DNA of 64,000 nt from Candidatus Gastranaerophilales bacterium (GTDB taxonomy: Bacteria > Cyanobacteriota > Vampirovibrionia > Gastranaerophilales > Gastranaerophilaceae): assembly GCA_944324395.1 (NCBI GenBank), contig CALUWC010000010.1:25993-89992 (forward strand), written 5' to 3'. The notes beneath the pieces are model-generated. The model was not told where the DNA came from. It was given only the letters and a program-made list of their open reading frames with translations, and made no database searches. The position numbers and the translations under genes were made by a program. Shown here piece by piece: positions 14,009-30,645 of this stretch; positions within the stretch are counted from its first letter, which is position 1; each line of letters starts with the position of its first letter.

Positions 14009-15235
14009 CTACGGCATAACTTTAAAAATTAAAGATGTATTGATTCCGCCAAAGGCAAAATTGTTTGTCATTACAATATCGGTATCTATTTCTCGGCCTG
14101 AACCCGTAATATAATCAAGCTTTCCGCATTCTTCATCAACTTCACTAAGGTTCAATGTAGGACAGAACCATTTTTTCTTTGCCATATCTATCGTTAATAT
14201 TGCTTCTATAGCACCGCAGGCACCAAGAGTATGACCTGTGTAGCTCTTTATAGAACTTACCGGAACCGCACGTTTAAAAACATCATAAGTTGCATTGGAT
14301 TCAGCAGTATCACCTTGAATTGTCGCCGTACCATGTGCATTTACATACCCGATAACATCAGGAGAAATTCCTGCATCTTTTAGAGCCAGTTCTAATGCCG
14401 ATTTCATTTTATCCCGATTTGGACTTGTTATATGAGTTCCGTCTGTACTCGTTCCAAATCCTAAAACTTCTGCGTAAATCTTTGCTCCGCGTTTTTTAGC
14501 ATGCTCATATTCTTCCAGAATTACAGTACCTGCACCTTCGCCCACAACAAGTCCATCGCGGTTTTTGTCAAAAGGTGACGGGGTTAATTCCGGAGTACCG
14601 TTTTTCTGGCTTGTCGCATACAAAGTGTCAAATATAGCAATCTGTGTCGGATGAAGTTCATCAGCTCCGCCTGCAATCATTATATCAGCATAACCGTTTT
14701 TAATAGCTTCATATCCGTAACCTATTCCCATAGCTCCTGATGTACAGGCTGTTGATGAAGGAATTAATCTGCCGGTTGTTTTAAAATACAACGAAATATT
14801 AACAGCAGAAGTCTGCGGCATCATCTTAACATAACTTCCGGATGTTACTGTTCTGACCTCTTTTTTATCCATCATTGAATAAAAATCAATAATACTTTCC
14901 AAAGAGCCGGAAGAAGAACCGTAGCTTACACCCGTTTGACCATTAGTAATAATTTCATCACCAAACAAACCTGCATCTTTCAATGCTTCTTCAGCCGTTA
15001 CAACACTCATAATTGCAACCCTGCCCATTGTCCTAAGATCCTTACGGGTATAATGTGCAGGAATAACAAAATCTCCGGCAGGAGCTGCAAGTTTCGTATT
15101 TAATCTGGTAAATACTTCCAACTCAGGCATATATTTTACACAATTTTTCAAGTTCAAAAGACGCTCAAATGCTTGCACTCTTGAATTGCCCAGAGGTGAA
15201 GTCTGAGCCATGCCGGTAACAACAACACGCCTCAT
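14009..15235 (-). CDS. Beta-ketoacyl-ACP synthase (FabF/ApeO-type), aryl-polyene-like cluster
   Basis: This 408-residue KS-II family condensing enzyme has a complete Cys-His-His triad: ACTSGAMGIGYG (Cys), VNAHGTATIQGD (His) and SYTGHTLGACGA (His). It should extend an ACP-bound polyene chain by decarboxylative condensation of malonyl units. Its ATG overlaps the stop of the ketoreductase gene (TAATG), so the two are translationally coupled. It is the last gene of the leftward arm of the cluster. Whether it corresponds to ApeO or ApeR of known aryl polyene clusters needs phylogeny. Confidence 0.85.
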   Translation of the reverse strand: MRRVVVTGMAQTSPLGNSRVQAFERLLNLKNCVKYMPELEVFTRLNTKLAAPAGDFVIPAHYTRKDLRTMGRVAIMSVVTAEEALKDAGLFGDEIITNGQTGVSYGSSSGSLESIIDFYSMMDKKEVRTVTSGSYVKMMPQTSAVNISLYFKTTGRLIPSSTACTSGAMGIGYGYEAIKNGYADIMIAGGADELHPTQIAIFDTLYATSQKNGTPELTPSPFDKNRDGLVVGEGAGTVILEEYEHAKKRGAKIYAEVLGFGTSTDGTHITSPNRDKMKSALELALKDAGISPDVIGYVNAHGTATIQGDTAESNATYDVFKRAVPVSSIKSYTGHTLGACGAIEAILTIDMAKKKWFCPTLNLSEVDEECGKLDYITGSGREIDTDIVMTNNFAFGGINTSLIFKVMP

Positions 15236-15960
15236 TAATACAACCCTCCGTTAACTGAAATAACTTGTCCTGTAATATATCCGGCATCTTCACTCATAAG
15301 ATAATTGACAAGACTTGCCACCTCTTTTGCTGTTCCGAAACGTTTCATCGGAATATGTTTTTTTATTTCTTCAACAGGTAAATCATGTGTCATATCGGAT
15401 TCTATAGCTCCGGGAGCAACACAATTTACTGTAATTTTACGTTTGGCAAGTTCAAGTGCCAAGGCCTTTGCGGCACCGATAATGCCAGCCTTGGAAGCAC
15501 TGTAATTAACCTGCCCGTAGTTGCCTCTAATACCTGATACAGATGACATGGCAACAATCCTGCCCTTAATTCGAGAAGCTATCATTGGCATAACTATAGG
15601 TTTTAATACATTGTAAAATCCACCGAGATTTGTATTTAAAACGTTATCCCAATCCTCATCGGTCATTGAGGGAAATACTGAATCACTTGTAATCCCTGCA
15701 TTTAAGACCACTCCATAATAAATTCCATTCTTTTCAATATCCTTAGATATAACTTTTTGACACTGCTCTCTGTTTGTAGTATCAAATTGCAAAATCCGTC
15801 CGCGTACCCCGTATTTTTTTATTTCTTCAAGTACTTCCTGAGCTTTTTGAATATTTTTATTACAGTGCAACACTATATCAAACCCGTTTTGAGCCAGATA
15901 TAAAGCTGTTTCTTTTCCTATTCCCCTGCTGGAACCGGTTATTAGTACAACTTTTCCCAT
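15235..15960 (-). CDS. 3-oxoacyl-ACP reductase (FabG/ApeQ-type SDR)
   Basis: This 241-residue short-chain dehydrogenase has the NADPH-binding GSSRGIGKETA motif, NAGIT, and the catalytic Ser-Tyr-Lys set (SSVSG, then YSASK). The C-terminus ends in ITGQVISVNGG, typical of FabG. It reduces the 3-ketoacyl-ACP formed by the ketosynthases. It lies four bases downstream of the dehydratase gene and overlaps the ketosynthase gene, so the arm is one operon. Confidence 0.88.
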   Translation of the reverse strand: MGKVVLITGSSRGIGKETALYLAQNGFDIVLHCNKNIQKAQEVLEEIKKYGVRGRILQFDTTNREQCQKVISKDIEKNGIYYGVVLNAGITSDSVFPSMTDEDWDNVLNTNLGGFYNVLKPIVMPMIASRIKGRIVAMSSVSGIRGNYGQVNYSASKAGIIGAAKALALELAKRKITVNCVAPGAIESDMTHDLPVEEIKKHIPMKRFGTAKEVASLVNYLMSEDAGYITGQVISVNGGLY

Positions 15961-15964
15961 AATA

Positions 15965-16417
15965 TTATACTCCGATGCTATTCAAGTATTGCTGTGCATC
16001 CTGAGGCTGGTAAGCATTTATTGTAGCCTTTGCACACTCAACACCACTATTATAAATTAAACATTCAAATGAAACAAGTTCATTATCACAAAATATTTCT
16101 TTTGCCTTAATTAAATATTTTCTGCCGTTTTCAAATTTATCAACAGAACACTTATAAGAACGTGTTCCTAATAAAAAACCAATTTTAGGTGTAACATTAT
16201 GATTTCTAAAATGAGTATAAGCAGCAATAGACTGTGCCATAAATTCAATTCCCAAAAGATAAGACACACCGTTTAGTTCTTTTTCAAAAAATACATTATC
16301 CTCTCTAATTGTGACATTTGTCAGAATATATTCTTCTTTAATATTAACTTCTTCAATATCGTCTATTAGTATCATCGGATAATTATGCGGTAATATTTTT
16401 TCCAAATCGTATTTCAT
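15965..16417 (-). CDS. Hotdog-fold 3-hydroxyacyl-ACP dehydratase (ApeP-like)
   Basis: This 150-residue single-domain hotdog protein begins with LPHNYPMILIDDIEEV, the hallmark of ApeP-type dehydratases, followed by GIEFMAQSIAAYTHFR on the central helix and KIGFLLGTRSYKC. It removes water from the 3-hydroxyacyl intermediate to give the conjugated double bonds. Because no enoyl reductase is present in the cluster, the double bonds would be retained, giving a polyene. Start is one base after the upstream ketosynthase stop. Confidence 0.82.
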   Translation of the reverse strand: MKYDLEKILPHNYPMILIDDIEEVNIKEEYILTNVTIREDNVFFEKELNGVSYLLGIEFMAQSIAAYTHFRNHNVTPKIGFLLGTRSYKCSVDKFENGRKYLIKAKEIFCDNELVSFECLIYNSGVECAKATINAYQPQDAQQYLNSIGV

Positions 16418-16418
16418 G

Positions 16419-17495
16419 TTACTTCCCTAAAATTATAACTGCGTTTGTGCCACCAAAACCAAAAGCGTTACACATAATATTTTTAACTTCTTTAACTTTA
16501 GTTCCTTTTTTTACAAGATTTATTTTCGGAATTCCCGGGTTATACTCACCATCATAAATATGCGGAGGCAAAGTACAACTGCCGCTTCTTAAAAGCTCAT
16601 AACATATTGCCGTTTCTATACTGGCAGATGCACCCAAACAGTGACCCGTAAGAGGCTTAGTAGCACCGGCAAAAATGTTTTCGCCGAAAACATTATATAT
16701 TGCATTGGCTTCCATTGTATCATTAGCAAGAGTTCCCGTACCATGAAGATTTATATAATCAATATCTTTTGGAGCTAATCCTGATTCTTTCAACGCTAAA
16801 AGCATTGCATTTGCAGCCTCAATGCCTTCTGGTTCCGGAGTCGAAGCATGATATGCATCCGACGTTTCGCCTATCCCGAGAACTTTTATCCCCTCGTCTT
16901 TTTTATCGAGTATAAATACAGCAGCCGCTTCAGAAATATTTATACCTGTCGGATTTTTACTGAACGGATTTGAACGCTTCTCCGACAGAACTTCTAACGA
17001 TTTAAATCCTGCCAGCGGGAATTGGGAAATTTCATCTGTTCCGCCTGCAATAACAGCATCACAAAGTCCGCATTCAATCCATTGTTTTGCAGTCAAAAAA
17101 GCTTTTATACCTGAAGAGCAAGCCGTTGATACCCCGCAGCAAAGTCCTTCTAAGCCCAGATAATCTTTTACAAACTCTGCAGGATTACTCATTTTTAAAA
17201 ATTCATAATTGTGAGTTTTTTCGTAATCATCAATTCCGGTATTTGTGGTTGAAAATACGACACCTATTCTTTTAGAACCGTATTCCTTTATAAGTTTTTC
17301 AATATCCGGCTGGATTTTATTTAAACAATGCAAAAGCATTCTGTTACAACGAATGTTATAAACTTCCTTATGTATTTCAGGCAGAAGAGTTGTAATTTTA
17401 AAATCAACAATTTTCCCATCAATAATATTTTGGAAAATTTCTTCTAAATTTTCACCTAAATTACATATAGCAGCTGCTTTTGTAATTCTAATCAT
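16419..17495 (-). CDS. Second beta-ketoacyl synthase (ApeR-like)
   Basis: This 358-residue ketosynthase is shorter than FabF by about 50 residues but keeps Cys (STACSSGIKAF), His (INLHGTGTLAND) and His (PLTGHCLGAS), so it should be catalytic. It heads the leftward operon (KS, dehydratase, ketoreductase, KS). Only 49 bases separate it from the divergent rightward arm, so both arms probably share a control region. It may act in initiation, or pair with the chain-length-factor-like protein at 17545. Confidence 0.82.
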   Translation of the reverse strand: MIRITKAAAICNLGENLEEIFQNIIDGKIVDFKITTLLPEIHKEVYNIRCNRMLLHCLNKIQPDIEKLIKEYGSKRIGVVFSTTNTGIDDYEKTHNYEFLKMSNPAEFVKDYLGLEGLCCGVSTACSSGIKAFLTAKQWIECGLCDAVIAGGTDEISQFPLAGFKSLEVLSEKRSNPFSKNPTGINISEAAAVFILDKKDEGIKVLGIGETSDAYHASTPEPEGIEAANAMLLALKESGLAPKDIDYINLHGTGTLANDTMEANAIYNVFGENIFAGATKPLTGHCLGASASIETAICYELLRSGSCTLPPHIYDGEYNPGIPKINLVKKGTKVKEVKNIMCNAFGFGGTNAVIILGK

Positions 17496-17544
17496 TATTC
17501 CTCTTCTTGCAGAATTTTTCTATCAATATTATACTTATAATATC
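17496..17544. promoter_or_regulatory. Divergent promoter region of the polyene-type cluster
   Basis: The 49-base spacer between the two arms is AT-rich and has TATAAT-like boxes on both strands (plus strand at 17536-17541; the reverse complement of attata at about 17529). A weak AAGAGGAAT ribosome site serves the leftward gene. The rightward gene has no clear ribosome site. Shared control of both arms is inferred from the geometry. Confidence 0.4.
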
Positions 17545-18135
17545 ATGAAGGAAATTATTTTTGATATAAAAAAATATTCTTATGTTAAAGATGAAGAGTG
17601 TGACGTTTCTTTCATTCCAATGATGACAAGAAGAAAACTCAACAAATTTGGAAGATGTGCTTTATATACTCTTTACAAAGTATATGAAAAGAATTCACCC
17701 CGTCTAGTATTCGCTTCCGAATACGGGGACACAGAAAGAGTTGATAAGTTGATTAATCAACGAGTAACAGACGGTGACGTTTCACCCAACGGTTTCAGTT
17801 CATCTGTTCATAATGCTTCTATCGGATTATTTTCCTTGCTTGAAAAAAATAAAACAGGTTACAATTCTATTTCTGCAGGCGAAAGAACTATTGCACAAGG
17901 ATTTCTGGAAAGTATTTTATCAAAGAATGCTGTTTTTTGTTATGCGGAAAGCCTTGGCGGCTTAAAAAGTGTTTCTGTATCAATCAATAATTCTAATGAC
18001 GGAAAATATTTACTATCAGAAAATATTGAAAATCTTGAATCAAAAGATTCTTTTGAAGATTTCATCAGATTTCTTGACGGGAAAGAAGATTTATTTGTAA
18101 GTGAGGTATTCAAAATTCAAAGGATTGCACCATGA
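17545..18135 (+). CDS. Ketosynthase-like chain-length-factor protein (ApeC-like)
   Basis: This 196-residue protein resembles the N-terminal half of a ketosynthase (the Ketoacyl-synt_2 type found in aryl polyene clusters). Visible features are SFIPMMTRRKLNKFGRCALY, a conserved FASEYGDTER segment and GFSSSVHNASIGLFSLL. It lacks the Cys and His active-site residues of a full KS, so it should be non-catalytic and act as a partner subunit that sets chain length. It heads the rightward arm. Its stop overlaps the next start (ATGA). Confidence 0.75.
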   Translation: MKEIIFDIKKYSYVKDEECDVSFIPMMTRRKLNKFGRCALYTLYKVYEKNSPRLVFASEYGDTERVDKLINQRVTDGDVSPNGFSSSVHNASIGLFSLLEKNKTGYNSISAGERTIAQGFLESILSKNAVFCYAESLGGLKSVSVSINNSNDGKYLLSENIENLESKDSFEDFIRFLDGKEDLFVSEVFKIQRIAP

Positions 18136-18863
18136 AATTTCTCAGAGCAATTCTTGTACTGGCTGAAATATGTTTCTTTGGCATTGGAGCGTTAATAATA
18201 GGCTGCATTATATTTCCGTTATTATCTTTATTCATAAAAGAAGAAAACCGACGAAAATTATTTTCAAATATAATACATTCATCATGGAATTTCTTTGTAG
18301 GATTGATGAAAAATACAAGAATAATCAATATCAACATTGATGGAGATTTGTCTAAAGTAAAAGGTAAAATTATTGCAGCTTCCCACCCCAGTTTAATTGA
18401 TATTGTTATTCTTATAGGAAACATGCCCAATTCTTTGTGCCTTGCCAAAAAAGAGCTTTTAAAAAATCCTGTTATGCACAATATTGTAAAATCCCTTTAT
18501 ATAATCAATAATATAGAACCTGAAATTTTCCAAAAAAATGCAATGAAGGCACTGGCTGACGGATACAATATTGTAATTTTTCCGACAGGAACAAGAACTC
18601 TGCCGGGAGAACAAATTAAAATTCATAAAGGAGCCGCACAACTTTCATTGGTATCCGGAATTAATATTGTACCGGTGAATATAAAAACAGATTATCCGTT
18701 TTTAATAAAACATCACTCCCCGCTTGATGCAGGAAATAAGCCGGTGAATTACAATATAAAAATCATGCCTGAAATAAATCCTGAAAATTATATAAATGAC
18801 ACAGACAGTGAAATAAAAGCTCGCAACCGAATATCAGAAAAAATTAAAGAATATATAAATTGA
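18132..18863 (+). CDS. PlsC-type 1-acyl-glycerol-3-phosphate acyltransferase-like protein (ApeD-like)
   Basis: This 243-residue membrane-associated acyltransferase has an N-terminal hydrophobic helix (residues 5-30), the catalytic H-x4-D block (ASHPSLIDIVI) and the VIFPTGTRT substrate block, which replaces the usual FPEGTR. Such LPLAT proteins are common in aryl polyene clusters, where they are thought to attach fatty acyl or polyene chains to a lipid anchor. Translation is coupled to the upstream gene. Confidence 0.8.
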   Translation: MKFLRAILVLAEICFFGIGALIIGCIIFPLLSLFIKEENRRKLFSNIIHSSWNFFVGLMKNTRIININIDGDLSKVKGKIIAASHPSLIDIVILIGNMPNSLCLAKKELLKNPVMHNIVKSLYIINNIEPEIFQKNAMKALADGYNIVIFPTGTRTLPGEQIKIHKGAAQLSLVSGINIVPVNIKTDYPFLIKHHSPLDAGNKPVNYNIKIMPEINPENYINDTDSEIKARNRISEKIKEYIN

Positions 18864-18909
18864 CTTTAGAAAGGGATTAAGTTATAAATTTAGTATAGGA
18901 ATTAGATAA

Positions 18910-19167
18910 ATGACACTGGAAAATGATATAAAAGAATTAATAATAAAATCGCTGGAATTAGAGGACATTAAATCTTCTGATATAAAAGATGAAGAACCGC
19001 TTTTTGGCGACGGTTTGGGGCTTGATTCGATTGATGCTCTTGAACTTGGTATGGCTTTAAAAAAACAGTATAATATTACCTTATCATCAGATAAAGATGA
19101 AAATTCAGAATATTTTTATTCTGTAAAAACAATTGCCGATTTTATCAGGAGTAATAGCAGTGACTAA
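18910..19167 (+). CDS. Acyl carrier protein 1
   Basis: This 85-residue acyl carrier protein has the phosphopantetheine attachment motif LGLDSIDALELG with the modified Ser in DSID. The acidic helix II is typical of a dedicated ACP. It carries intermediates in this cluster and would be activated by the PPTase at 25325. TAGGAATTAG precedes the ATG. It overlaps the second ACP by eight bases. Confidence 0.88.
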   Translation: MTLENDIKELIIKSLELEDIKSSDIKDEEPLFGDGLGLDSIDALELGMALKKQYNITLSSDKDENSEYFYSVKTIADFIRSNSSD

Positions 19168-19420
19168 AACTTTTACATACGATGAAATTATGAATAAATT
19201 GACAGAAATCCTTGTTGATGATTTTGAAATTGACAAATCTGTTATCCGGCCGGAAGCAAATCTTTTTGAAGATCTGGAACTTGATAGTATTGATGCAGTT
19301 GATTTAGCAGTAAAGCTTCAATATTTTACCGACAAAAAAATCCCGCCTGAAAATTTTAAAAAAATTAAAACAGTTGAAGATGTTGCAAAAACTATTGAAG
19401 AACTCGTAAAATGCGATTAA
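19160..19420 (+). CDS. Acyl carrier protein 2 (GTG start)
   Basis: I place the start at GTG 19160, eight bases after AGGAG and within the last codons of ACP 1; an upstream TTG has no ribosome site. The 86-residue product has FEDLELDSIDAVDLAVKL with the carrier Ser. Two different ACPs side by side are characteristic of aryl polyene clusters, one used for the starter and one for elongation. Confidence 0.88.
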   Translation: MTKTFTYDEIMNKLTEILVDDFEIDKSVIRPEANLFEDLELDSIDAVDLAVKLQYFTDKKIPPENFKKIKTVEDVAKTIEELVKCD

Positions 19421-19842
19421 AATATATATTTCCAATATTGATTACTTTTGCAGTTATTCTGGTATTTCATTATACAAAAATATATTTTATAAAATTTTAT
19501 CCTGTAGCTGCAAATTTAACAACATTTCTGGTATTTTTTGCATCATCATTTTCAAAAGAAACAGTTATCCAAAAATTTGCCAAAAGTCTTGAAGGCGGCA
19601 TATTAGATGATTTTACTAAGAATTACACAAGAAAATTAACTTATATATGGTGTATTATAACCTTTATAAATTTTATAATTTCAATAATAACAGTCTTTTT
19701 ACCGGAAAAATGGTGGGCATTATATAACGGATGTATTTCATATTTTGCAATTGGAATGGTGTTTGTGGTTGAATATATTATAAGAATAGTTTTGAGAAAG
19801 AAATATAGAAAAAATGATATTAGAGAAATTTCAAACCGATAA
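19411..19842 (+). CDS. Small integral membrane protein of aryl-polyene-type clusters
   Basis: This 143-residue protein has four hydrophobic helices (about residues 4-22, 28-44, 72-92 and 104-124) and no enzymatic motif. A four-helix membrane protein in this position, between the ACPs and the AMP ligase, is a regular member of such clusters (COG4648-like) and probably anchors the enzyme complex at the membrane. It overlaps both neighbours, so the genes are tightly coupled. Confidence 0.65.
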   Translation: MRLKYIFPILITFAVILVFHYTKIYFIKFYPVAANLTTFLVFFASSFSKETVIQKFAKSLEGGILDDFTKNYTRKLTYIWCIITFINFIISIITVFLPEKWWALYNGCISYFAIGMVFVVEYIIRIVLRKKYRKNDIREISNR

Positions 19843-21358
19843 ATATGATAATGAGCTTGTATTTATAAACCCTGATATTACTCTGGGAGAACTTAAGCAA
19901 TATATCTCATATCAATGCAAAGAGTTTGAAAAATCAGAAATTAAAAATATTATTTTATTCGGCAGTGATTATTTCAATTTTGCAATAAACTTTTTTGCCG
20001 CAGCTTTTACGAGTAAACAAATATATCTTATATCTGACAAAGAACGTCTAAAATTGTTAAATGTTGATTATTTGATACCGGATAATGCCAAAAAGCTCAA
20101 TGAAAAAATCAATATCAATAATATACAGCCAAAAGATATTTTAATAAACTTTTTTACTTCAGGTTCAACCGGAGAACCCCAGAATATTCAAAAAAATTTA
20201 TATAATCTTGAAGTTGAAGCTCGAACTACAATTGAAGAATTTAACTTGAAATCTGATCGTATATTCGTCGCCACAACATCATGGGCTCATAGTTTCGGAA
20301 TAGTTTTTGATTTTATTCTTCCATTTGGCTACGGCTGCAGAATAAATAAAAAAAGAATAGATTTTCCGGAACAGCTGGATTTTGAAGATAATTACATATT
20401 AATTTCAACCCCGTCTTTTATGGAAAAACTAGCAAAATATGATTACACTTTCTACAAGTCGCCTGAAAAAATCTTCCTTGCAGGAGCAAAATTAAAACCG
20501 GAAATTATCGACTATTTTAAACAATACACAGACCTGATTGACATTTACGGAAGCACTGAAACAGGTAACATTGCATACAAAAGAGGCTACACAAATTTTA
20601 CACCGTTTAGAGATGTCGAAGTAACAACCGATAATAAAAGTCAGGCTATTATAAAATCCGAATATTTTCCGCAAGAACAAGCTCTATTATCTGATATAAT
20701 TGAATTTGTTAACGATAAAGAATTTGTCTTTAAAAAACGTTCCGACAGAATTGTTAAAGTATTTGAAAAAAGAATATCTCTTGATGAAATAGAAACTAAT
20801 TTAAAAAAACATAATAAAGTAAAAGATTGTTATTGCTTTATGTACAATGATAAATTAGCCTGTATTGTATCAACTGATGATATTAGCCTTGAAAAAGCCG
20901 ACTTGAAGCATTTCCTTACAAATTATGGTGAAGTTGTACCTAAAAAATGGAGGCTCGTAGACGAACTTCCTAAAACTGCAACAGGCAAAATTGACAGATC
21001 AAAATTATTAAAACTTTTCGGAATGAATCAATCTCTGCCTTTCGTAATTTCCAAAACAATAGAACATAACGAAGCAAACATTACACTAATATTTAAAAGA
21101 AATTCCAACTTCTTTAATGGGCATTTTGATATGATGTCAATATTACCAGGAGTTGTTCAGCTTTATTATGCAAAATTTTTTGCAGACAATATTTTTAATA
21201 TTGAAATTCCGCCAAAAGAAGTCAAACGGGTAAAATTTTCTAATATAATAAGACCTGACACCCCTGTTACTCTAACCTTGAAGAATAATGAAAATTCAGT
21301 TGAATTTGCCTACATGACTGATGCTAAAACATATTCTTCAGGTATATTTGTAAAGTAA
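19814..21358 (+). CDS. Acyl-AMP ligase fused to ApeI-like dehydratase
   Basis: This 514-residue protein has an adenylation domain at residues 1 to about 400. It shows FFTSGSTGEPQNIQKN (phosphate loop), DIYGSTETGNIAYKR, and the catalytic Lys motif LPKTATGKIDR. From about 410 it has a small hotdog domain with FNGHFDMMSILPGVVQLYY, a FabA/FabZ/ApeI-type dehydratase containing the active His. It should activate the starter acid onto an ACP and dehydrate chain intermediates. In other aryl polyene clusters ApeH and ApeI are often separate; here they are one polypeptide. The starter is not predictable. Confidence 0.82.
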   Translation: MILEKFQTDKYDNELVFINPDITLGELKQYISYQCKEFEKSEIKNIILFGSDYFNFAINFFAAAFTSKQIYLISDKERLKLLNVDYLIPDNAKKLNEKININNIQPKDILINFFTSGSTGEPQNIQKNLYNLEVEARTTIEEFNLKSDRIFVATTSWAHSFGIVFDFILPFGYGCRINKKRIDFPEQLDFEDNYILISTPSFMEKLAKYDYTFYKSPEKIFLAGAKLKPEIIDYFKQYTDLIDIYGSTETGNIAYKRGYTNFTPFRDVEVTTDNKSQAIIKSEYFPQEQALLSDIIEFVNDKEFVFKKRSDRIVKVFEKRISLDEIETNLKKHNKVKDCYCFMYNDKLACIVSTDDISLEKADLKHFLTNYGEVVPKKWRLVDELPKTATGKIDRSKLLKLFGMNQSLPFVISKTIEHNEANITLIFKRNSNFFNGHFDMMSILPGVVQLYYAKFFADNIFNIEIPPKEVKRVKFSNIIRPDTPVTLTLKNNENSVEFAYMTDAKTYSSGIFVK

Positions 21359-21378
21359 TTTAAAGTTTGAGGTAAAAA

Positions 21379-21792
21379 ATGAAATTTGAATCAGAAACAT
21401 TTATAACAGTACAATTCTATGATCTGGATCCAATGAACGTTGTATGGCACGGGAATTATATAAAATATCTTGAAACAGCAAGATGTGATTTGCTTGCAAA
21501 ACTGGGGTATGATTATGAATCTATGAAACGGGATAATGTTATGTATCCTGTTGCTACAATGGAAATGAAATATATTAAACCCTGCGAATTTCAGCAAAAA
21601 TTGAGAATCGTTTCTTCTCTTGAAGAAATTGAACCCTGTATGATTATTAAATATACAATATTTGATGCACAAACAAATGAGAAAATATTCAAAGCTAAAA
21701 CAATGCAAATCTGCGTGAATTCAAAAACTAAAGAAAGTTTATATTCTGCCCCTGAAGGTTTGAAAGATAAACTTGCTTGTTGTAATCTTTAA
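21379..21792 (+). CDS. Acyl-ACP thioesterase, 4HBT/YbgC-type hotdog (ApeK-like)
   Basis: This 137-residue hotdog protein has the 4HBT signature FYDLDPMNVVWHGNYIKYLETARCDLL, in which Asp18 is the probable catalytic residue. It would release or edit ACP-bound chains. GAGGT precedes the ATG, and the next gene follows two bases after its stop. Confidence 0.84.
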   Translation: MKFESETFITVQFYDLDPMNVVWHGNYIKYLETARCDLLAKLGYDYESMKRDNVMYPVATMEMKYIKPCEFQQKLRIVSSLEEIEPCMIIKYTIFDAQTNEKIFKAKTMQICVNSKTKESLYSAPEGLKDKLACCNL

Positions 21793-21794
21793 TT

Positions 21795-22316
21795 ATGAAA
21801 AGATTTATTGTTATAGTATTATCAATTTTTCTGGCTGGAAGCTGTGTATCTGCAAAAGATGCGATATATCAATATCCCGCAAATATTGCAAATGTCAAAA
21901 TACCTCAAAACACAAATGTTACCTGTAAGTTTACACAAACAAAAACTATTCCTAATTCACAAGCCTGCATTAAATCTGGGGGAAATTTTAAATTCAATAT
22001 AAATAACGGGGTAATATTTGATACCCAGTATCCGGTTAAATCAACAACTGCATACACCTCAGACCAGAGCAAACGAATAAGTGATATAATCATTGCAATT
22101 TCAAAAAAAGATTACTCTTATATAAATAAAAATTTTAATGTTTATCATTTGAAAAATCAAAAGAATTGGGAACTTGCACTTCAACCAAAAAAAGAGTCAA
22201 AAATTCATAATGTTATGGATTCAATAGTTATTCATGGAAACAATTATATAGATACTATTGAAATTAATACACTAAAAAACGGAAGTACCAAAATAAATTT
22301 TACAGAATGCAGATAG
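21795..22316 (+). CDS. LolA-like periplasmic lipid carrier
   Basis: This 173-residue protein has a signal peptide (MKRFIVIVLSIFLAGSCVSA). The mature part resembles the LolA-type carriers of aryl polyene clusters: CKFTQTKTIPNSQACIKSGGNFKF, then VIFDTQYPVKSTT. It probably shuttles the polyene lipid from the inner to the outer membrane together with the adjacent MMPL exporter. The cysteine near the signal cleavage site (GSC) could alternatively mark a lipoprotein. Its sequence is divergent, so the call rests partly on context. Confidence 0.68.
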   Translation: MKRFIVIVLSIFLAGSCVSAKDAIYQYPANIANVKIPQNTNVTCKFTQTKTIPNSQACIKSGGNFKFNINNGVIFDTQYPVKSTTAYTSDQSKRISDIIIAISKKDYSYINKNFNVYHLKNQKNWELALQPKKESKIHNVMDSIVIHGNNYIDTIEINTLKNGSTKINFTECR

Positions 22317-22317
22317 T

Positions 22318-24423
22318 ATGAAAAATATTTTAAGAATTTTATACATTTTACTTTTTGTCATAGCAGGAATATGGGTTTTTCTCCACCCTGTTAAAACAGA
22401 AACAAATTTACTAAGAGCAGTATATTCAAACAGCTATTCCGATGAAATAGTAGTAACCCTTAGCGGAAGATACTCTTCAAAAATAAATGTGTTGATAGAA
22501 TCATCTTCTGTTCAATCAGCTTCACAGGCTGCTGACAAATTCTTAAATTCAATTGATAAAAAATCTTTTATGATTAAAGATTTTGATTTCTCAAAAATTC
22601 TTTCAACCCTGCAAATATATAATCAAAATCTGTTATCCGCATCAACTGCAAAAGAATTGGAAAATAAACAATATGACGCAGTTACAACACAAGCATACAA
22701 CAGGCTGCTTGACCCTTTCGGAATTATGCTTCTGCCATTGAATGAAGATCCGTTTGTCCTGTTCGGAGATTATTTGAAATCTTTAGGAAACGATAATTCG
22801 GACACTCTTGAATATAACGGAAAACATTATAAATTTTTATCTCTGGAAGTGAACAATAATATTGCATTATCGCCTGATATTGTAAACAAAAAAATTAAAG
22901 AACTGACACGTTTGCAATCCGAAATGTCAAACAGTGACGTAAAAATTTATCTTACAGGGACACCTATCCATTCTTACTATGCAAGCTCAAAATCAATGAT
23001 AGAAATTAATATTATTTGTGCATTATCCTCACTATTTATACTTGCAATCTGCTATTTTTATTTCAGGAATTTAAAACTTCTAATACCCATAGCAATAAGT
23101 CTTGGCGGAGGAATTCTGGCAGGATATCTGCTATGTGCAATATTTTTCCCTTCAATACATGTTTTAACATTTGTTTTTTCAACAACATTAATCGGTATCT
23201 GTATTGATTATTCTTTGCACTACTTTATAGAAAAAGATATTGAAAAAATATTTAAAAGCCTCACCGTTAGTATGCTGACAACAGTAAGTGCCTTTGCAAT
23301 ACTTCTTTTTTCAGGTGTAGAACTTTTGAAACAAATATCAGTATTTACAATGACCGGATTATTTACGGTTTATTCAATGGTAGTTTTATTTTACCCGCTG
23401 TTCAAATTTTCCGGTCAATCCGGCAAAATCAATTTTAATCTTACTCCAAAATTCAAAAAAATATTTTCAGTAGTCATTATTCTGGTATCAGTATGCGGAA
23501 TTTTCTGTCTAAAATTTAATGATGATATAAGAAACTTATATGTTCCGTCTAAAAAACTTATGAAGGCAGAAAAACTGTTTGCTGAAGTTACCGGAGGAAA
23601 CAAAAAGACAACATTTGCCCTTATTAAGGGAGAAAACATGCAAGAAATCTTGCAAAAAGAAGAAAATATTACCAAAAATCTGATGCCTCAGGATTATCAG
23701 GCAATAAGTAAATATATACCATCAATTAAACGCCAGCAGGAAAATTTTAATCTGAGAAAAGTCTTATACCAAAAAGAATTGAATAAATATGCACAGTTTT
23801 TATCACCAAAAGAAAAACAGAAATTATTAAATTCAAAACAAACTAACAAATATTTAGAATATAAAGATTTACCTGAATTTTCCGAATTCATGCCGGATAA
23901 AAACACTTCACTTATAGTTCTTTATGATATAAAAAATCCGGAAATCATAACGAAAAACGGTGCCGAATATATAGACGTAACCCAAAGTATTACAACAAAA
24001 ATAAGAAACTGCAGAATCAACTGTGTGAAAATGCTTCTGCCAATTTTTATAATTCTTTTTGCTCTTTTATCCTGCATCTATAAACCTAAAACAGCATTAA
24101 AAATAACATCCCCATCAATCATTGCCGCTGTATTTTCAATCGCACTGGTATCATTAACCGGACAAGAAATTAACCTGTTCCATATACTTGCAATATTTCT
24201 CATAGTAGGTTTCGGACTTGATTATTCCGTATTCAGGGCAAGCGGAATACAATCAGCTTCCGATGCAGTTTTACTATCCTGTTTAACAAGTATTTTTTCA
24301 TTTTTACTACTGGCATTTACAAGTTTCAAACTCATCAGTTCTCTCGGCTTTATATTATCTGCAGGGTTGACAGTATCATATCTTGCAAGTCTTCTGTTTG
24401 ACTACAAAAAGGAGAACGGTTAA
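22318..24423 (+). CDS. MMPL/RND-family exporter (ApeM-like)
   Basis: This 701-residue protein has the RND layout: an N-terminal helix, a periplasmic loop of about 200 residues, five or six helices at about 225-380, a second loop, and helices at 560-690. The SLGGGILAGYLL and FVFSTTLIGICIDYSLHYF motifs carry the charged residues used in proton coupling (GICIDYS; GFGLDYSVFRA in the second half). It should export the finished polyene product. It starts one base after the LolA-like stop. Confidence 0.85.
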   Translation: MKNILRILYILLFVIAGIWVFLHPVKTETNLLRAVYSNSYSDEIVVTLSGRYSSKINVLIESSSVQSASQAADKFLNSIDKKSFMIKDFDFSKILSTLQIYNQNLLSASTAKELENKQYDAVTTQAYNRLLDPFGIMLLPLNEDPFVLFGDYLKSLGNDNSDTLEYNGKHYKFLSLEVNNNIALSPDIVNKKIKELTRLQSEMSNSDVKIYLTGTPIHSYYASSKSMIEINIICALSSLFILAICYFYFRNLKLLIPIAISLGGGILAGYLLCAIFFPSIHVLTFVFSTTLIGICIDYSLHYFIEKDIEKIFKSLTVSMLTTVSAFAILLFSGVELLKQISVFTMTGLFTVYSMVVLFYPLFKFSGQSGKINFNLTPKFKKIFSVVIILVSVCGIFCLKFNDDIRNLYVPSKKLMKAEKLFAEVTGGNKKTTFALIKGENMQEILQKEENITKNLMPQDYQAISKYIPSIKRQQENFNLRKVLYQKELNKYAQFLSPKEKQKLLNSKQTNKYLEYKDLPEFSEFMPDKNTSLIVLYDIKNPEIITKNGAEYIDVTQSITTKIRNCRINCVKMLLPIFIILFALLSCIYKPKTALKITSPSIIAAVFSIALVSLTGQEINLFHILAIFLIVGFGLDYSVFRASGIQSASDAVLLSCLTSIFSFLLLAFTSFKLISSLGFILSAGLTVSYLASLLFDYKKENG

Positions 24424-24424
24424 T

Positions 24425-25297
24425 ATGCAGTGGTATCAAATGAGAGAACAAGCAGCAGGTGCAACAAGACTTCTAATTATCTGGAATTTATATAAAGTTT
24501 TTGGCAAAAAATTTGTAAGATTACTCGTATTTTTTATAACCTTTTTTGCTTTTTTAGGTGCCTCAGAACCACGTAAATACTCTAAAAAATACCTTGAAAT
24601 TGCCGGGTTGAACTCAGGAATATTAAACCAGTTTAGACATTTTCTGGCATTTTCTGACACTTTGCTTGATAAAATGGAGGTTTTTTCAGGAAAATATGAG
24701 CCGAAAAATATGATTTTTGATAATGAAAAAGATAAAGATATGTTTATTGAGGATTTAAAAAGAGGAATATTTGTTATAGGTTCGCATCTTGGCAATATAG
24801 AAATGATGAGAGCATTTTTGCGGACAAATATTTGCAAACATTTGAATATTTTCCTGTCTGCAGATCAATGCAAAATATTCAACCATTTTATAAAACAAAT
24901 AGAAATTCAAAGTCCTGTTGACATTTATCCTGTTGAGAATATCACTGTAAACACTTCAATCGAAATAAAAGAAAAAATTTCGAAAGGTGAAGTCGTTGTA
25001 ATGGCAGGAGATAGGATCTCGCAAAACAGCATAAACACTAATGCTGTCTTTTTAGGTAAAAAAATCCGAATTCCTTCAGGCACATTTAAATTTGCATATC
25101 TTATGGAAAGTCCGATATATTTTATCTGCACACTTAAAGAAGGTGAAAAATACAGAATATATCTAAAAAAATTTAAATACAACGGAAATAAAAAAGAAAC
25201 AATCCAGCAAATGCAAAAAGAATACCTGGAATTTTTAGAAAAACTTACACATAAATATCCTTTCCAGTTTTTCCATTTTTATGATTTTTTTGAGTAA
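24425..25297 (+). CDS. LpxL/HtrB-type lipid acyltransferase (LPLAT)
   Basis: Start chosen at ATG 24425 after AAAAAGGAG; an upstream TTG lies inside the exporter gene. The 290-residue protein begins WYQMREQAAGATRLLIIWNLYKVFG, typical of lipid A-type acyltransferases in polyene clusters, followed by a transmembrane helix. It has the H-x4-E catalytic block GSHLGNIEMMRA and VVMAGDRIS. It would acylate the lipid carrier of the product. This is the second acyltransferase of the cluster. Confidence 0.8.
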   Translation: MQWYQMREQAAGATRLLIIWNLYKVFGKKFVRLLVFFITFFAFLGASEPRKYSKKYLEIAGLNSGILNQFRHFLAFSDTLLDKMEVFSGKYEPKNMIFDNEKDKDMFIEDLKRGIFVIGSHLGNIEMMRAFLRTNICKHLNIFLSADQCKIFNHFIKQIEIQSPVDIYPVENITVNTSIEIKEKISKGEVVVMAGDRISQNSINTNAVFLGKKIRIPSGTFKFAYLMESPIYFICTLKEGEKYRIYLKKFKYNGNKKETIQQMQKEYLEFLEKLTHKYPFQFFHFYDFFE

Positions 25298-25324
25298 CAT
25301 AAAGTTTTATAGTAATATACTTTT

Positions 25325-25843
25325 ATGGAAATATATTATATAAATTCCGAAAAATTTTTAAAAACACACGATATTGAATTTCTGCATCAATATGCTGATA
25401 ATAAAAAATTTAAATCACTAAAGAGATTTATACAGTACACTCTTGGCAGGTATATTGTAAAAACTGCCGGAGAAAAAATCTACAACCTTCCGGATACAAC
25501 AATAGAAATTCAAAATAAAAAACCAAAATTTAAATATGGAAATATAAAATTCAGTATAAGCCACAGCAGCAAAATAATAGCTACAGCTTTTGATAAATTT
25601 GAATGCGGACTTGATATAGAAGAAATGAAACCAAGAAATCTTAATGAACTATCAAAATACTATGAACAAAAGTTTGAAACTCAAGAGGATTTTTACAAAT
25701 TCTGGACAGAAAACGAAGCAACAATAAAACTTCAGCAAAAAGCAAAAACAAAATATAGTAAAATTATAGAAAATAAATACATGCTAACAGTTGTTTCTTC
25801 TGATGAAAAATTTTCCGAACCTACGGATATTATTGAATTATAA
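25325..25843 (+). CDS. Sfp-type 4'-phosphopantetheinyl transferase
   Basis: This 172-residue protein activates the ACPs by adding the phosphopantetheine arm of CoA. It has FSISHSSKIIA, the metal-binding GLDIEE motif and FYKFWTENEATIKL; the family usually has W-x-K-E-A, so Asn replaces Lys here. At 172 residues it is shorter than Sfp. It closes the rightward operon. Its stop codon (TAA) lies inside the left arm of the following inverted-repeat element. Confidence 0.82.
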   Translation: MEIYYINSEKFLKTHDIEFLHQYADNKKFKSLKRFIQYTLGRYIVKTAGEKIYNLPDTTIEIQNKKPKFKYGNIKFSISHSSKIIATAFDKFECGLDIEEMKPRNLNELSKYYEQKFETQEDFYKFWTENEATIKLQQKAKTKYSKIIENKYMLTVVSSDEKFSEPTDIIEL

Positions 25844-27632: not shown

Positions 27633-27663
27633 ACAAGGCAAAACTATAATAGTTTTGCCTTGT
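27633..27663. terminator. Intrinsic terminator hairpin between convergent genes
   Basis: A perfect 13-bp stem (acaaggcaaaact / agttttgccttgt) surrounds the loop ATAAT. It lies between the secreted protein and the graspetide precursor, which are convergent. No long T run follows. Confidence 0.7.
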
Positions 27664-27688: not shown

Positions 27689-29338
27689 TTACAGAAGCTT
27701 AGGTTCAGAATCTCCGCCTTCTTCTCCAAGTGCCATTGTAGTGATTTGCCCGCCGCCTTCTTCTCCGATAGACATTGTGGTAACAGGAACATCACCATTT
27801 TCATTTAATCCGTAAGTGCCTGCATCAACCTCGTTATTAGGCAGTTTAATTTCACCGTTTCTTATTTTTTCCAATAATTCCAGTATATTTTTTGTGGCTT
27901 TTTCATCCAAAATAGGCTTATCATTTTTATTTTTTAAATCTTCAATTAGTTTACGGAATTTCTCTTTAACATCATCAGATAATATGACAGAATCTCCGCC
28001 TTCTTCGCCCATAGCATAAGTTGTTATTGTCTCAAAGCCACCGTCTTCACCAATTGCCGCTGTAAAAGCTGTACCACCCTCTTCATTTGTAGCTTTGGTT
28101 GTTATGCCATCACCGCTTTCACCAATTGCCGTTGTAACAGCTGAGCCGCCTTCTTCATTCAAAGCCATTGTGGTAATATTTTCACCACCCTCTTCACCAA
28201 GTGCCATTGTTGTTGGTGCTGCATCACCGGTTTCACCCAAGCTATATGTACCTGGCTCAATTGGACTCTTCGGAAGCTTTATTTCTCCATTTTTTATTTT
28301 CTCTAAAACTTCTTGAAGTGTTTTCCAAGTATCGTCATCAATTTTTACGTCAGCACCTGTTTTATTTTTCAACTGTTCTACTGCCTCTTGAATTTTTTTT
28401 GACATTTCATCATCGACTTTTACCGAACCGCCACCTTCTTCACCAAGTGCCATTGTTGTTGCTGCATCTCCGTTCTCGCCTAAAGCATATGTACCGGCTC
28501 CGATTGGAGGTTTTGGAAATTCTATTTCTCCATTTTTTATTTTTTCACTGTAGTCTTGAAGCATTTTCAATGTTTCCGGATCCAGATGTACCGGTAAGTC
28601 ATGCCGATATATCCTGAAATCACCTTCTTCCTCTTTAGGAACAGATAGTTTTCCCGGACCATAAGTACCTTCCTCCTCCAGAGCTACAGATATTTGCCCC
28701 GGGCCATAAGTACCTTCCTCCTCTAGAGGTACAGATATTTCCCTCGGACCAACCATAGGCGACAAATCAGCTTGCTTTTTCTCCCGACGTTCAGCCATTT
28801 TTTCCAAAGCTTCCTGCATTAGTTTTGGAAGTTCTACTCCTCCGTTTTTCATTTTCTCTATATTTTCCCGAATTTGTTTCTGTGCTTCTTCATCCATTTC
28901 AGGAAGTTTTATTTCACCGTTTTGAACTTTCTCCCAAAATTCCTGACCTATTTTTGGATCTATTAATTTTCCAATAGTCATTGGAGGTTCGCCTTGTTCT
29001 TCACTTAAATAAGATATACCTATCTTAGGATCAATACCTTGTTCTTTATCCGGGTAAGATATATTAAGTTTCTGGTTTCTTGCCCCATCATTGAAGTTTA
29101 CAAAAGTATTCTCATCAGGATTCTTTTCAACGTAAAATCCTTTCACTTTTAAATCTTTTGCATTATTTAAATCTTTTTTAGATTCAGTTTTCTTAGCAAG
29201 TTTGTCTATTTCAGCATTTATTTGCTCGGAAGTAGGTTTTTTCACACCTTGAGCATTTAACTCTTCTTTTGCTTTTCTAGTCAACAAATCCTTATTATAA
29301 TCATCACCGGATCCGCCATCTACTCTAAATGTTGTCAT
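27689..29338 (-). CDS. Giant multi-core graspetide (omega-ester peptide) precursor, group 2-like
   Basis: Start set at ATG 29338 after GAAAGGAG. The 549-residue acidic, cytoplasmic protein holds 17 core-like units that all keep [T/S]-x4-E. Seven match T-T-x4-E-E exactly (starting at residues 294, 376, 389, 413, 439, 520 and 533). Three are I/L-S-V-x-x-E-E-E (201, 216, 231), three G-T-Y-x-L-x-E-x (282, 363, 507), two I-S-Y-type (93, 108), and two degenerate (401, 425). TTxxxxEE is the core consensus of plesiocin-type graspetides. Between core clusters are leader-like helical modules ending in EKIxNGEIKLP (residues 136-146, 161-171, 265-275, 346-356, 490-500). It is divergent from the ATP-grasp ligase at 29473. 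Modification is inferred. Confidence 0.85.
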   Translation of the reverse strand: MTTFRVDGGSGDDYNKDLLTRKAKEELNAQGVKKPTSEQINAEIDKLAKKTESKKDLNNAKDLKVKGFYVEKNPDENTFVNFNDGARNQKLNISYPDKEQGIDPKIGISYLSEEQGEPPMTIGKLIDPKIGQEFWEKVQNGEIKLPEMDEEAQKQIRENIEKMKNGGVELPKLMQEALEKMAERREKKQADLSPMVGPREISVPLEEEGTYGPGQISVALEEEGTYGPGKLSVPKEEEGDFRIYRHDLPVHLDPETLKMLQDYSEKIKNGEIEFPKPPIGAGTYALGENGDAATTMALGEEGGGSVKVDDEMSKKIQEAVEQLKNKTGADVKIDDDTWKTLQEVLEKIKNGEIKLPKSPIEPGTYSLGETGDAAPTTMALGEEGGENITTMALNEEGGSAVTTAIGESGDGITTKATNEEGGTAFTAAIGEDGGFETITTYAMGEEGGDSVILSDDVKEKFRKLIEDLKNKNDKPILDEKATKNILELLEKIRNGEIKLPNNEVDAGTYGLNENGDVPVTTMSIGEEGGGQITTMALGEEGGDSEPKLL

Positions 29339-29472
29339 CTTTGCTCCTTTCAAAATTATACACACAAACAATTCTTACGGCAGACAAATAAAAAATCTTT
29401 AGAAAAAATTTTTAAATCGTTACAATTGGAAATATAAAAAAAAATCCTTTACTATATAAAAGGAGGCTGAAA
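29339..29472. promoter_or_regulatory. Divergent control region of the graspetide precursor and ligase
   Basis: This 134-base spacer between the two divergent start codons is AT-rich and carries the ribosome sites GAAAGGAG (leftward) and AAAAGGAGG (rightward, at about 29458). A possible rightward -10 (TACTATA) lies at about 29449 with TTACAA about 30 bases upstream. The divergent arrangement suggests joint control of precursor and enzyme. Confidence 0.45.
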
Positions 29473-30345
29473 ATGATTCTTATTATAGGAAGTGACGAAG
29501 ATTTTCATTCAAAATACATACTGGAAAAGTTACATGAACAAAATACCCCGGCAAAATATTTTGATACAAGGAAATATCCTGTATTAAACTGGTCGCCGGA
29601 AGGTGAAAATGATTATATTATACTTGATGATGAGAAAATTTACCTGAAAGATGTCACAGGAATATACTGGAGATGGTACTACGGGGTAATTTATGGAACG
29701 TCTGACATAGTATACAGAGAAAAGACATCCGCCCTTGAAAGCTTCCTGTGTTCGCTTGAGGATATCAGCTGGAACTCGCTGCAATCTGTTGAATTACATC
29801 GAAAAAAAGGGCTGCAAAGTAAAATTATGCAAAATAACGGAATAAGAATTCCTAAAACTATCGTTACTAATGACCAGGATGCCCTTGAAAAATTCTACCT
29901 TGAAAATAACAAAAACATTATCTACAAACCTGTTAGAGGCGGAGCTTATACTCAAAAATTAAAAGAGGAAGATTTTTTACGCAAAGATACACTGATAAAT
30001 TGTCCATGCCAGCTTCAGGAATGCATTGACGGCATTGATATTAGAGTTTATGCATTTGAAACAGGAGAAATTTTTTCAGGTGAAATACTTGCAAACAGTA
30101 TAGATTTCAGAGCAGATGACAAAGCAAAAATTAACAAACACCCATTGCCGGAAAATATTCAAAAAGATTGTCTGAAAATATTAAAACTTCTTGGATTAAA
30201 ATACTCAGGTATTGATATACGATTGAGCAATAGCGGAGAATACGTATTTATTGAAGCTAATCCTGCCCCAATGTTTACTCACTTTGAAAACATGACAGGT
30301 TATGAAATTACAAACACGCTTATAAAAAATTTGAAAAAAGTTTAA
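29473..30345 (+). CDS. ATP-grasp macrocyclase (graspetide synthetase)
   Basis: This 290-residue stand-alone ATP-grasp ligase has no transmembrane segment. It has IYWRWYYG at 64-71, WNSLQSVELHRKKGLQ at 100-115, the ATP-binding IYKPVRGG at 150-157, QECIDGIDIRVYAF at 182-195, DFR at 211-213, and the metal-binding YSGIDIR and FIEANPAPMF at 245-267. This pattern is that of RimK-like and MdnC/PsnB-type graspetide ligases, which join Thr/Ser hydroxyls to Asp/Glu side chains. Its direct neighbour is a protein with exact TTxxxxEE repeats, which fixes the likely substrate. It is slightly shorter than typical members (about 300-330). No transporter or protease is linked. Confidence 0.88.
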   Translation: MILIIGSDEDFHSKYILEKLHEQNTPAKYFDTRKYPVLNWSPEGENDYIILDDEKIYLKDVTGIYWRWYYGVIYGTSDIVYREKTSALESFLCSLEDISWNSLQSVELHRKKGLQSKIMQNNGIRIPKTIVTNDQDALEKFYLENNKNIIYKPVRGGAYTQKLKEEDFLRKDTLINCPCQLQECIDGIDIRVYAFETGEIFSGEILANSIDFRADDKAKINKHPLPENIQKDCLKILKLLGLKYSGIDIRLSNSGEYVFIEANPAPMFTHFENMTGYEITNTLIKNLKKV

Positions 30346-30360
30346 TATAGATATAATAAT

Positions 30361-30645
30361 TTAGCTCAATTCAATATCTAAACGTGTTTTGCCTTCACCA
30401 CGATTTATAATACCGTCGCCATTTTGCTCAAGATAAAAATATTTTTGTTGTTTACCGTCAGAAGATTGAATGTTCATTTGATCAACAGAAATAATATTCC
30501 CTGAGTTATCTTTTTGAACAGAAACTATAAGATTTTTCCCGTCTTCATTATAATAAGACTCTATAATCCTGCCACTTTCTCCTCGTTCTGTTTCTACCCT
30601 ATATCCCGGACTATTTTTTAATATTTCTACAAGAACATGTAAATA
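30361..30645 (-). pseudogene. 5'-truncated gene fragment, unrecognised
   Basis: A continuous minus-strand frame of about 94 codons runs from a stop at 30643 upstream to TAA at 30361. It encodes a plausible protein (VETERGESGRIIESYYNEDGKN, then FYLEQNGDGIINRGEGKTRLDIELS) but has no start codon or ribosome site. The NGDG turn resembles a calcium-binding loop. It is probably the remnant of a longer gene whose 5' part has been lost. A 50-90 base gap on either side is unoccupied apart from the terminator. Confidence 0.5.

Follow-up and report, generated by a model that had tools for sequence, protein, structure and literature searches.

A 549-residue precursor with plesiocin-type cores beside a PsnB-like ATP-grasp ligase in Candidatus Gastranaerophilales

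Can the ring-forming chemistry of graspetides, which have mostly been treated as small peptides, be applied to a protein of several hundred residues that is kept whole? This question is raised by a 64,000-nucleotide stretch (the window) of contig CALUWC010000010.1 from Candidatus Gastranaerophilales bacterium, in which the gene of a giant repeat protein lies divergently beside that of a single ATP-grasp ligase (Table 1). Plesiocin, a group 2 graspetide, has the core consensus TTxxxxEE and contains four repeats. An earlier annotation made from the letters of the window (the original prediction) had described a 549-residue protein with seven exact and ten related units of this type next to the ligase, and its positions and counts, as well as the giant size, were confirmed on recounting. 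The locus as a whole is best read, with a probability of roughly 0.75, as encoding a leader-guided and likely unprocessed protein that would be studded with hairpin bicycles. If the protein does stay whole, the ring chemistry would offer a route to a large, ring-reinforced and multivalent protein with one extra gene.

Ligase, cores and leader-like motif

Among solved enzymes, the nearest relative of the ligase is PsnB, the plesiocin cyclase, both by sequence and by fold, and RimK ranks under the graspetide ligases listed in the structure comparisons. The RimK family model returned 55.6 bits for the ligase, where 143.4 are needed. The original prediction had called the enzyme a graspetide-type ligase and had taken a grouping with RimK, glutathione or carbamoyl ligases as the case against it; family scores and fold rule out a RimK, glutathione, carbamoyl or D-Ala ligase. 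The ligase comparison started from 41 loci together with the window and four known enzymes; 44 rows were kept after L048 (one stop) and L022 (24 stops, read on the wrong strand) had dropped out. The enzyme also carries the DFR motif, reported in a 2026 survey to be critical for graspetide synthetases (PMC13097080), where MdnC and AMdnB have DWR. Both genes are preceded by Shine-Dalgarno sequences found by eye and judged strong, namely AAGGAGG 5′ of the ligase ATG at 29473 and AAAGGAG 5′ of the precursor ATG.

The precursor frame may start at this ATG (27689-29338, minus strand) or at a TTG further upstream (27689-29371), which would give 560 residues. The 549-residue protein has a net charge of about -43 and no cysteines. 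Beyond the seven exact TTxxxxEE units, ten related units of the form [TS]x4-5E bring the total to 17. A chance origin of the repeats was ruled out by 10,000 shuffles of the precursor, in which exact units averaged 0.04 with a maximum of two, and the plesiocin-type assignment of the cores stands. Synonymous codons vary among the seven cores, which indicates that it is the protein motif that has been conserved. Across the 57 distinct exact cores counted, position 3 is variable, position 4 is mostly A, position 5 mostly L, M, V, I or T and position 6 mostly G, with GG following 55 of them. The PSD sequence of the microviridin core does not occur in the window precursor, and comparison of the latter with PDB sequences gave chance matches only (best E 0.36).

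Ahead of the cores lies TFVNF, the predicted recognition site which, we infer, guides the ligase. Fourteen of 19 precursors contain the corresponding pattern [PTS]F[VIL]x[FY], where 0.28 would be expected, and it starts at residue 6-10 in six of them (L030, L033, L038, L040, L042 and L044) and at residue 58-83 in eight, including that of the window. This set of 19 excludes L029, the DNA of which is partly masked and another frame of which holds TFVNF, and the residue numbers for L024, L025, L026 and L032 were taken from the longest frame, which begins about 8-10 residues ahead of the likely ATG. The leader motif Phhx(1,2)h, reported in only about half of graspetide precursors (PMC8939145), is matched by PFIKF in L033 and PFVKF in L042. 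That paper treats a conserved motif within about the first 30 residues as frequent without making it a defining feature (PMC8939145); the window motif, starting at residue 78, lies outside this range. The DNA similarity found (E ≤ 1e-10) between the window precursor and those of L024, L025 and L026 is confined to codons 62-87, around TFVNF.

In the mechanism proposed here, the PsnB-like ligase would recognise TFVNF inside the 549-residue protein and close each of the seven TTxxxxEE units via two side-chain esters, giving 14 esters, with perhaps some single esters among the ten related units. It would work distributively, as reported for PsnB and AMdnC, while the helical spacers of a low-confidence model would hold the bicycles apart, and the product would be a protein bearing a series of hairpin bicycles and likely left unprocessed. 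Macrocyclisation of the precursor by the ligase is predicted with high confidence; sequence evidence establishes the type of the ligase, the presence of the cores and of the motif, and the kinship of the N-terminal domain (below).

It is highly improbable that the repeat protein is not the substrate, with the ligase modifying something else and the two genes being neighbours by chance. The ligase adjoins a protein with at least one exact core at 18 of the 28 Vampirovibrionia or near-kin loci (19 when L028, the neighbour of which has related units only, is counted), and core-rich frames, defined as at least two exact or at least six loose units, were found at 34 of 57 loci of other taxa (L047-L103). 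Among the 286 genomes of the order, the ligase is present in 19 and a match to the precursor in eight, seven of which also carry the ligase, and an eroded precursor is left in one genome from which the ligase is gone (see the last section).

Table 1. Coordinates of the precursor, the ligase and their features in the window
Feature	Residues	Positions	Strand	Basis
Giant precursor protein, 549 aa		27689..29338	minus	ORF listing and motif count
N-terminal domain, helical pair, related to LysM-bearing N-termini, without first strand	1-75	29114..29338	minus	hhalign and AF2
Leader-like motif TFVNF, predicted ligase recognition site	78-82	29093..29107	minus	motif count
Helical spacer, predicted, low confidence	122-191	28766..28975	minus	AF2
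Core TTMALGEE	294-301	28436..28459	minus	motif count
Helical spacer, predicted, low confidence	310-349	28292..28411	minus	AF2
Core TTMALGEE	376-383	28190..28213	minus	motif count
Core TTMALNEE	389-396	28151..28174	minus	motif count
Core TTKATNEE	413-420	28079..28102	minus	motif count
Core TTYAMGEE	439-446	28001..28024	minus	motif count
Helical spacer, predicted, low confidence	455-493	27860..27976	minus	AF2
Core TTMSIGEE	520-527	27758..27781	minus	motif count
Core TTMALGEE	533-540	27719..27742	minus	motif count
PsnB-like ATP-grasp graspetide synthetase, 290 aa		29473..30345	plus, divergent from precursor	family, structure and fold comparisons
DFR motif of ligase	211-213	30103..30111	plus	sequence
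aa, amino acids; ORF, open reading frame; AF2, AlphaFold2.

N-terminal domain and fate of the product

The window precursor has no Pfam match, that to LysM (PF01476) included. Its relatives P0139 (24.3 bits) and P0153 (22.2 bits) pass the LysM cut-off of 20.9, which P0138 (20.3) and P0144 (20.5) narrowly miss. When window-type N-termini were aligned by hhalign with the LysM-bearing domain of these relatives, a value of 98.9% was obtained, inflated by the leader stretch; repeating the alignment without the leader motif gave 97.5%, and cutting 17 further residues gave 96.1% (E 3.3e-9, 33 columns). The first LysM strand is missing from the window-type N-termini, and AF2 places helices at residues 12-29 and 37-52 with a block pLDDT (predicted local distance difference test) of 75-81. 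The domain is related to the LysM-bearing N-termini, in a degraded form. No paper that treats a graspetide and LysM together was found in the openly licensed literature. A Pfam TMP_C match in P0138 (33.6 bits, cut-off 27) overlies the repeats and was attributed to their composition.

This relation lends some weight to the suggestion, already made in the original prediction, of a structural or surface polymer. In the form considered here, an N-terminus of LysM origin would tether the protein, a rod of hairpins locked by esters, to peptidoglycan. Besides P0139 and P0153 and the homology of the window N-terminus to their domain, the same genome holds a frame of 1,992 codons that matches LysM and the visible part of which has no evident signal peptide. 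The suggestion loses weight in turn because no signal peptide is evident in the window protein on inspection by eye; the loss of the first strand and the missing Pfam match likewise tell against anchoring, which is regarded as improbable. An unlikely though more conventional alternative is that of a multi-core ribosomally synthesised and post-translationally modified peptide (RiPP), the giant protein being a mere store that an unlinked protease would cut in the spacers, freeing numerous small bicyclic peptides. About half of graspetide precursors are reported to have a GG-type cleavage motif, with the cutting enzyme mostly outside the locus (PMC8939145), and the GG behind 55 of the 57 distinct exact cores could be such a cutting site. 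This GG, however, stands after each core and not before it, and the retained N-terminal domain and spacers would be unneeded in a pure store. A search for Peptidase_C39 (E ≤ 0.001), which found matches in eight of 14 control genomes, gave none in this 99.36%-complete genome, and no protease or transporter gene stands directly beside the precursor or ligase, as the original prediction had noted. Because no C39 peptidase and no linked transporter were found, the modified product probably stays whole, a view held at slightly better than even odds.

For such a ring-bearing protein that is kept whole, the most likely function, tentatively predicted by analogy with plesiocin, would be that of a multivalent serine-protease inhibitor. 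Plesiocin and the microviridins are described as potent serine-protease inhibitors, the potency of plesiocin increasing with the number of cyclised motifs (PMC13097080). In a gut lineage, a protein of this kind could be relevant to serine proteases of the host or of microbes.

Several observations weigh against the reading of a leader-guided, multiply cyclised and whole protein. By fold alone, PsnB (29.2) leads AMdnB (28.0) by just 1.2 Z. The leader-like motif is absent from five of the 19 precursors, two of which carry SYLNF, and TFVNF has T where the published motif has P. Nine of the 28 Vampirovibrionia or near-kin loci have no core-bearing precursor beside the ligase, some of them lying at contig ends or having been read with only 1.5 kb of flank. 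At 23 of the 57 loci of other taxa, the core-unit filter gave no precursor, and the window precursor is unmatched (E ≤ 1e-5) in 12 of the 19 genomes of the order that carry the ligase, several of these 12 having small or diverged precursors. The AF2 model of the whole precursor is poor (pLDDT 40.1, predicted template modelling score 0.17), which makes the spacers between core clusters a guess. Finally, proteases other than C39 could cut the product, and a protease target is not readable from the cores.

Relation to known graspetides and the size series

The window system resembles that of plesiocin (PsnA2/PsnB) in its tandem TTxxxxEE cores, single ATP-grasp ligase and closest solved enzyme. 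It differs in that its units, seven exact and ten related, are spread over 549 residues, with a LysM-related N-terminal domain ahead of the leader-like motif and predicted helical spacers. The 2026 survey reports high co-occurrence of group 2 with an NHLM-type transporter (PMC13097080), whereas the window pair has no linked transporter. The original prediction had put known precursors at roughly 50-150 residues, a figure that is not supported in that form: according to the survey, corallotide (group 15) has a His6-CorA of about 22 kDa, and long or large precursors occur in groups 34, 35 and 41 (PMC13097080). Large repeat graspetides are already in print. Corallotide and groups 34 and 35 share repeated linkage motifs with the window, CorA has a helical N-terminal domain, and group 35 consists of synthetase and precursor only, while corallotide differs in its size, its KxxxD isopeptides and its oxygenase (PMC13097080). 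Groups 34 or 35, compared here by their description, may include window-type sequences. The combination of a LysM-related head, an inward leader and giant size for plesiocin-type cores was not found in the openly licensed literature searched.

Microviridin (group 1) has the core TxKxPSD (PMC7823629). AMdnA, a precursor of that type, is similar to the window protein in carrying several cores in one chain that are closed by a distributive ATP-grasp cyclase, and differs in the core type and in having three cores (PMC5934393). A graspetide synthetase has been reported to cyclise constructs of up to 258 residues (PMC12291112).

The precursors of Cyanobacteriia, Pseudomonadota and Planctomycetota (L047-L103) share TTxxxxEE cores and a related ligase with the window, and among those listed an HPF-type leader replaces TFVNF. 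Their core-rich frames are 51-150 residues long in 30 of 34 cases and 234-427 in the remainder. The planctomycete precursors (P0154, L083, L085 and L099), with an HPF leader and C-terminal cores, are larger and differ further in an RR-hydrophobic stretch, which was detected as a twin-arginine (Tat) signature by regular expression in three of the four and by eye in P0154; judged from these sequences, their rings would form ahead of Tat export. P0158 (410 residues) combines an HPF leader and four exact cores with an RTX calcium-binding repeat domain and would represent a fusion of cores with a type I secretion-like domain; its name in one source, RTX toxin-like, implies no toxin activity. P0156, P0157, P0159 and P0160, with 306-370 residues, 12-14 exact units and a different N-terminus, form what by sequence is a further large family. 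A 160-residue protein with T-[LK]-A-Y-P-S-D-D repeats adjoins a more distant ligase (42% identity) in L019 (891-1373) and has perhaps another core type.

Among 7,990 candidates scored, 40 proteins matched the window precursor at E ≤ 0.001, its own sequence included. The forms range from L040 (58 residues, one core), L042 (60) and L038 (72) to P0122 with 613 residues and 22 units, seven of them exact. One possible, rather speculative course is that a 58-residue single-core graspetide grew into a whole-protein class of the Vampirovibrionia, with a LysM-derived head, a leader moved inward, an array that recombines, holds as many as 22 hairpins locked by esters and is kept whole, and a leader-plus-core cassette swapped between species, so that rings would serve as protein architecture. 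The 58-613-residue series with its common leader-like motif opens two questions to direct testing: how a single-core RiPP grows into a protein, and by what means a single enzyme can act on cores as far as about 450 residues away from the site at which it is predicted to recognise the chain.

Genomic site, a probable exchange and neighbouring genes

The original prediction had surmised a gut relative of the cyanobacteria as host, and this is supported: the near relatives are Candidatus Gastranaerophilales, gut-type Vampirovibrionia, and the host is likely a non-photosynthetic relative of the cyanobacteria. The genes thrC and rpoC flank the ligase-precursor pair in four loci, those of the window, L024, L026 and L032; neither flanking gene was found near the pair in L025, L027, L028 and L029. 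At the rpoC end of 30 loci of the genus, the ligase is there in four, thrC follows rpoC with no ligase between in nine, and neither occurs within 1.5 kb in 17. At this one thrC-rpoC site, some genomes carry the pair and others lack it. In G260 (L127 810-1136), this site holds an eroded 108-residue precursor remnant with one exact core, and the genome has no ligase match.

Divergence between the window and L032 is uneven along this site. Synonymous divergence (dS) is 3.44 in the ligase (silent sites saturated; non-synonymous divergence, dN, 0.059), 0.52 in rpoC, 0.24 in thrC, which lies beyond the precursor, and 0.74 over precursor residues 1-86; from codon 76 onwards, where the precursors align, it falls to 0.027 in core units and 0.031 in the other post-N-terminal codons. 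The change occurs at codons 75-76, two residues ahead of TFVNF, and in the alignment the two precursors are set apart by one block of some 104 residues plus 24 residues of repeat. A near-identical leader-plus-core block was seen in this pair only, among 21 compared. We read the pattern as a probable exchange of a leader-plus-core cassette, in a tract that may extend further towards thrC; an assembly chimera is a possible source of the near-identity.

A promoter scan returned 20 candidate sites against 11.6 ± 3.3 expected, and a 14-pair stem at 27633-27663 may mark the end of transcription. At 30358-30640 on the minus strand, the window holds a truncated remnant of a 296-residue gene with an EF-hand-like end that is intact in L032 (8040-8930). 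Just upstream, positions 14009-25843 encode ketosynthases, a short-chain reductase, an acyl carrier protein, acyltransferases, a thioesterase, an AMP-binding protein with a weak, sub-cut-off ApeI-like dehydratase end, a 701-residue protein without a Pfam match and a 4′-phosphopantetheinyl transferase-like protein, a gene content suggestive of an aryl-polyene-like locus.
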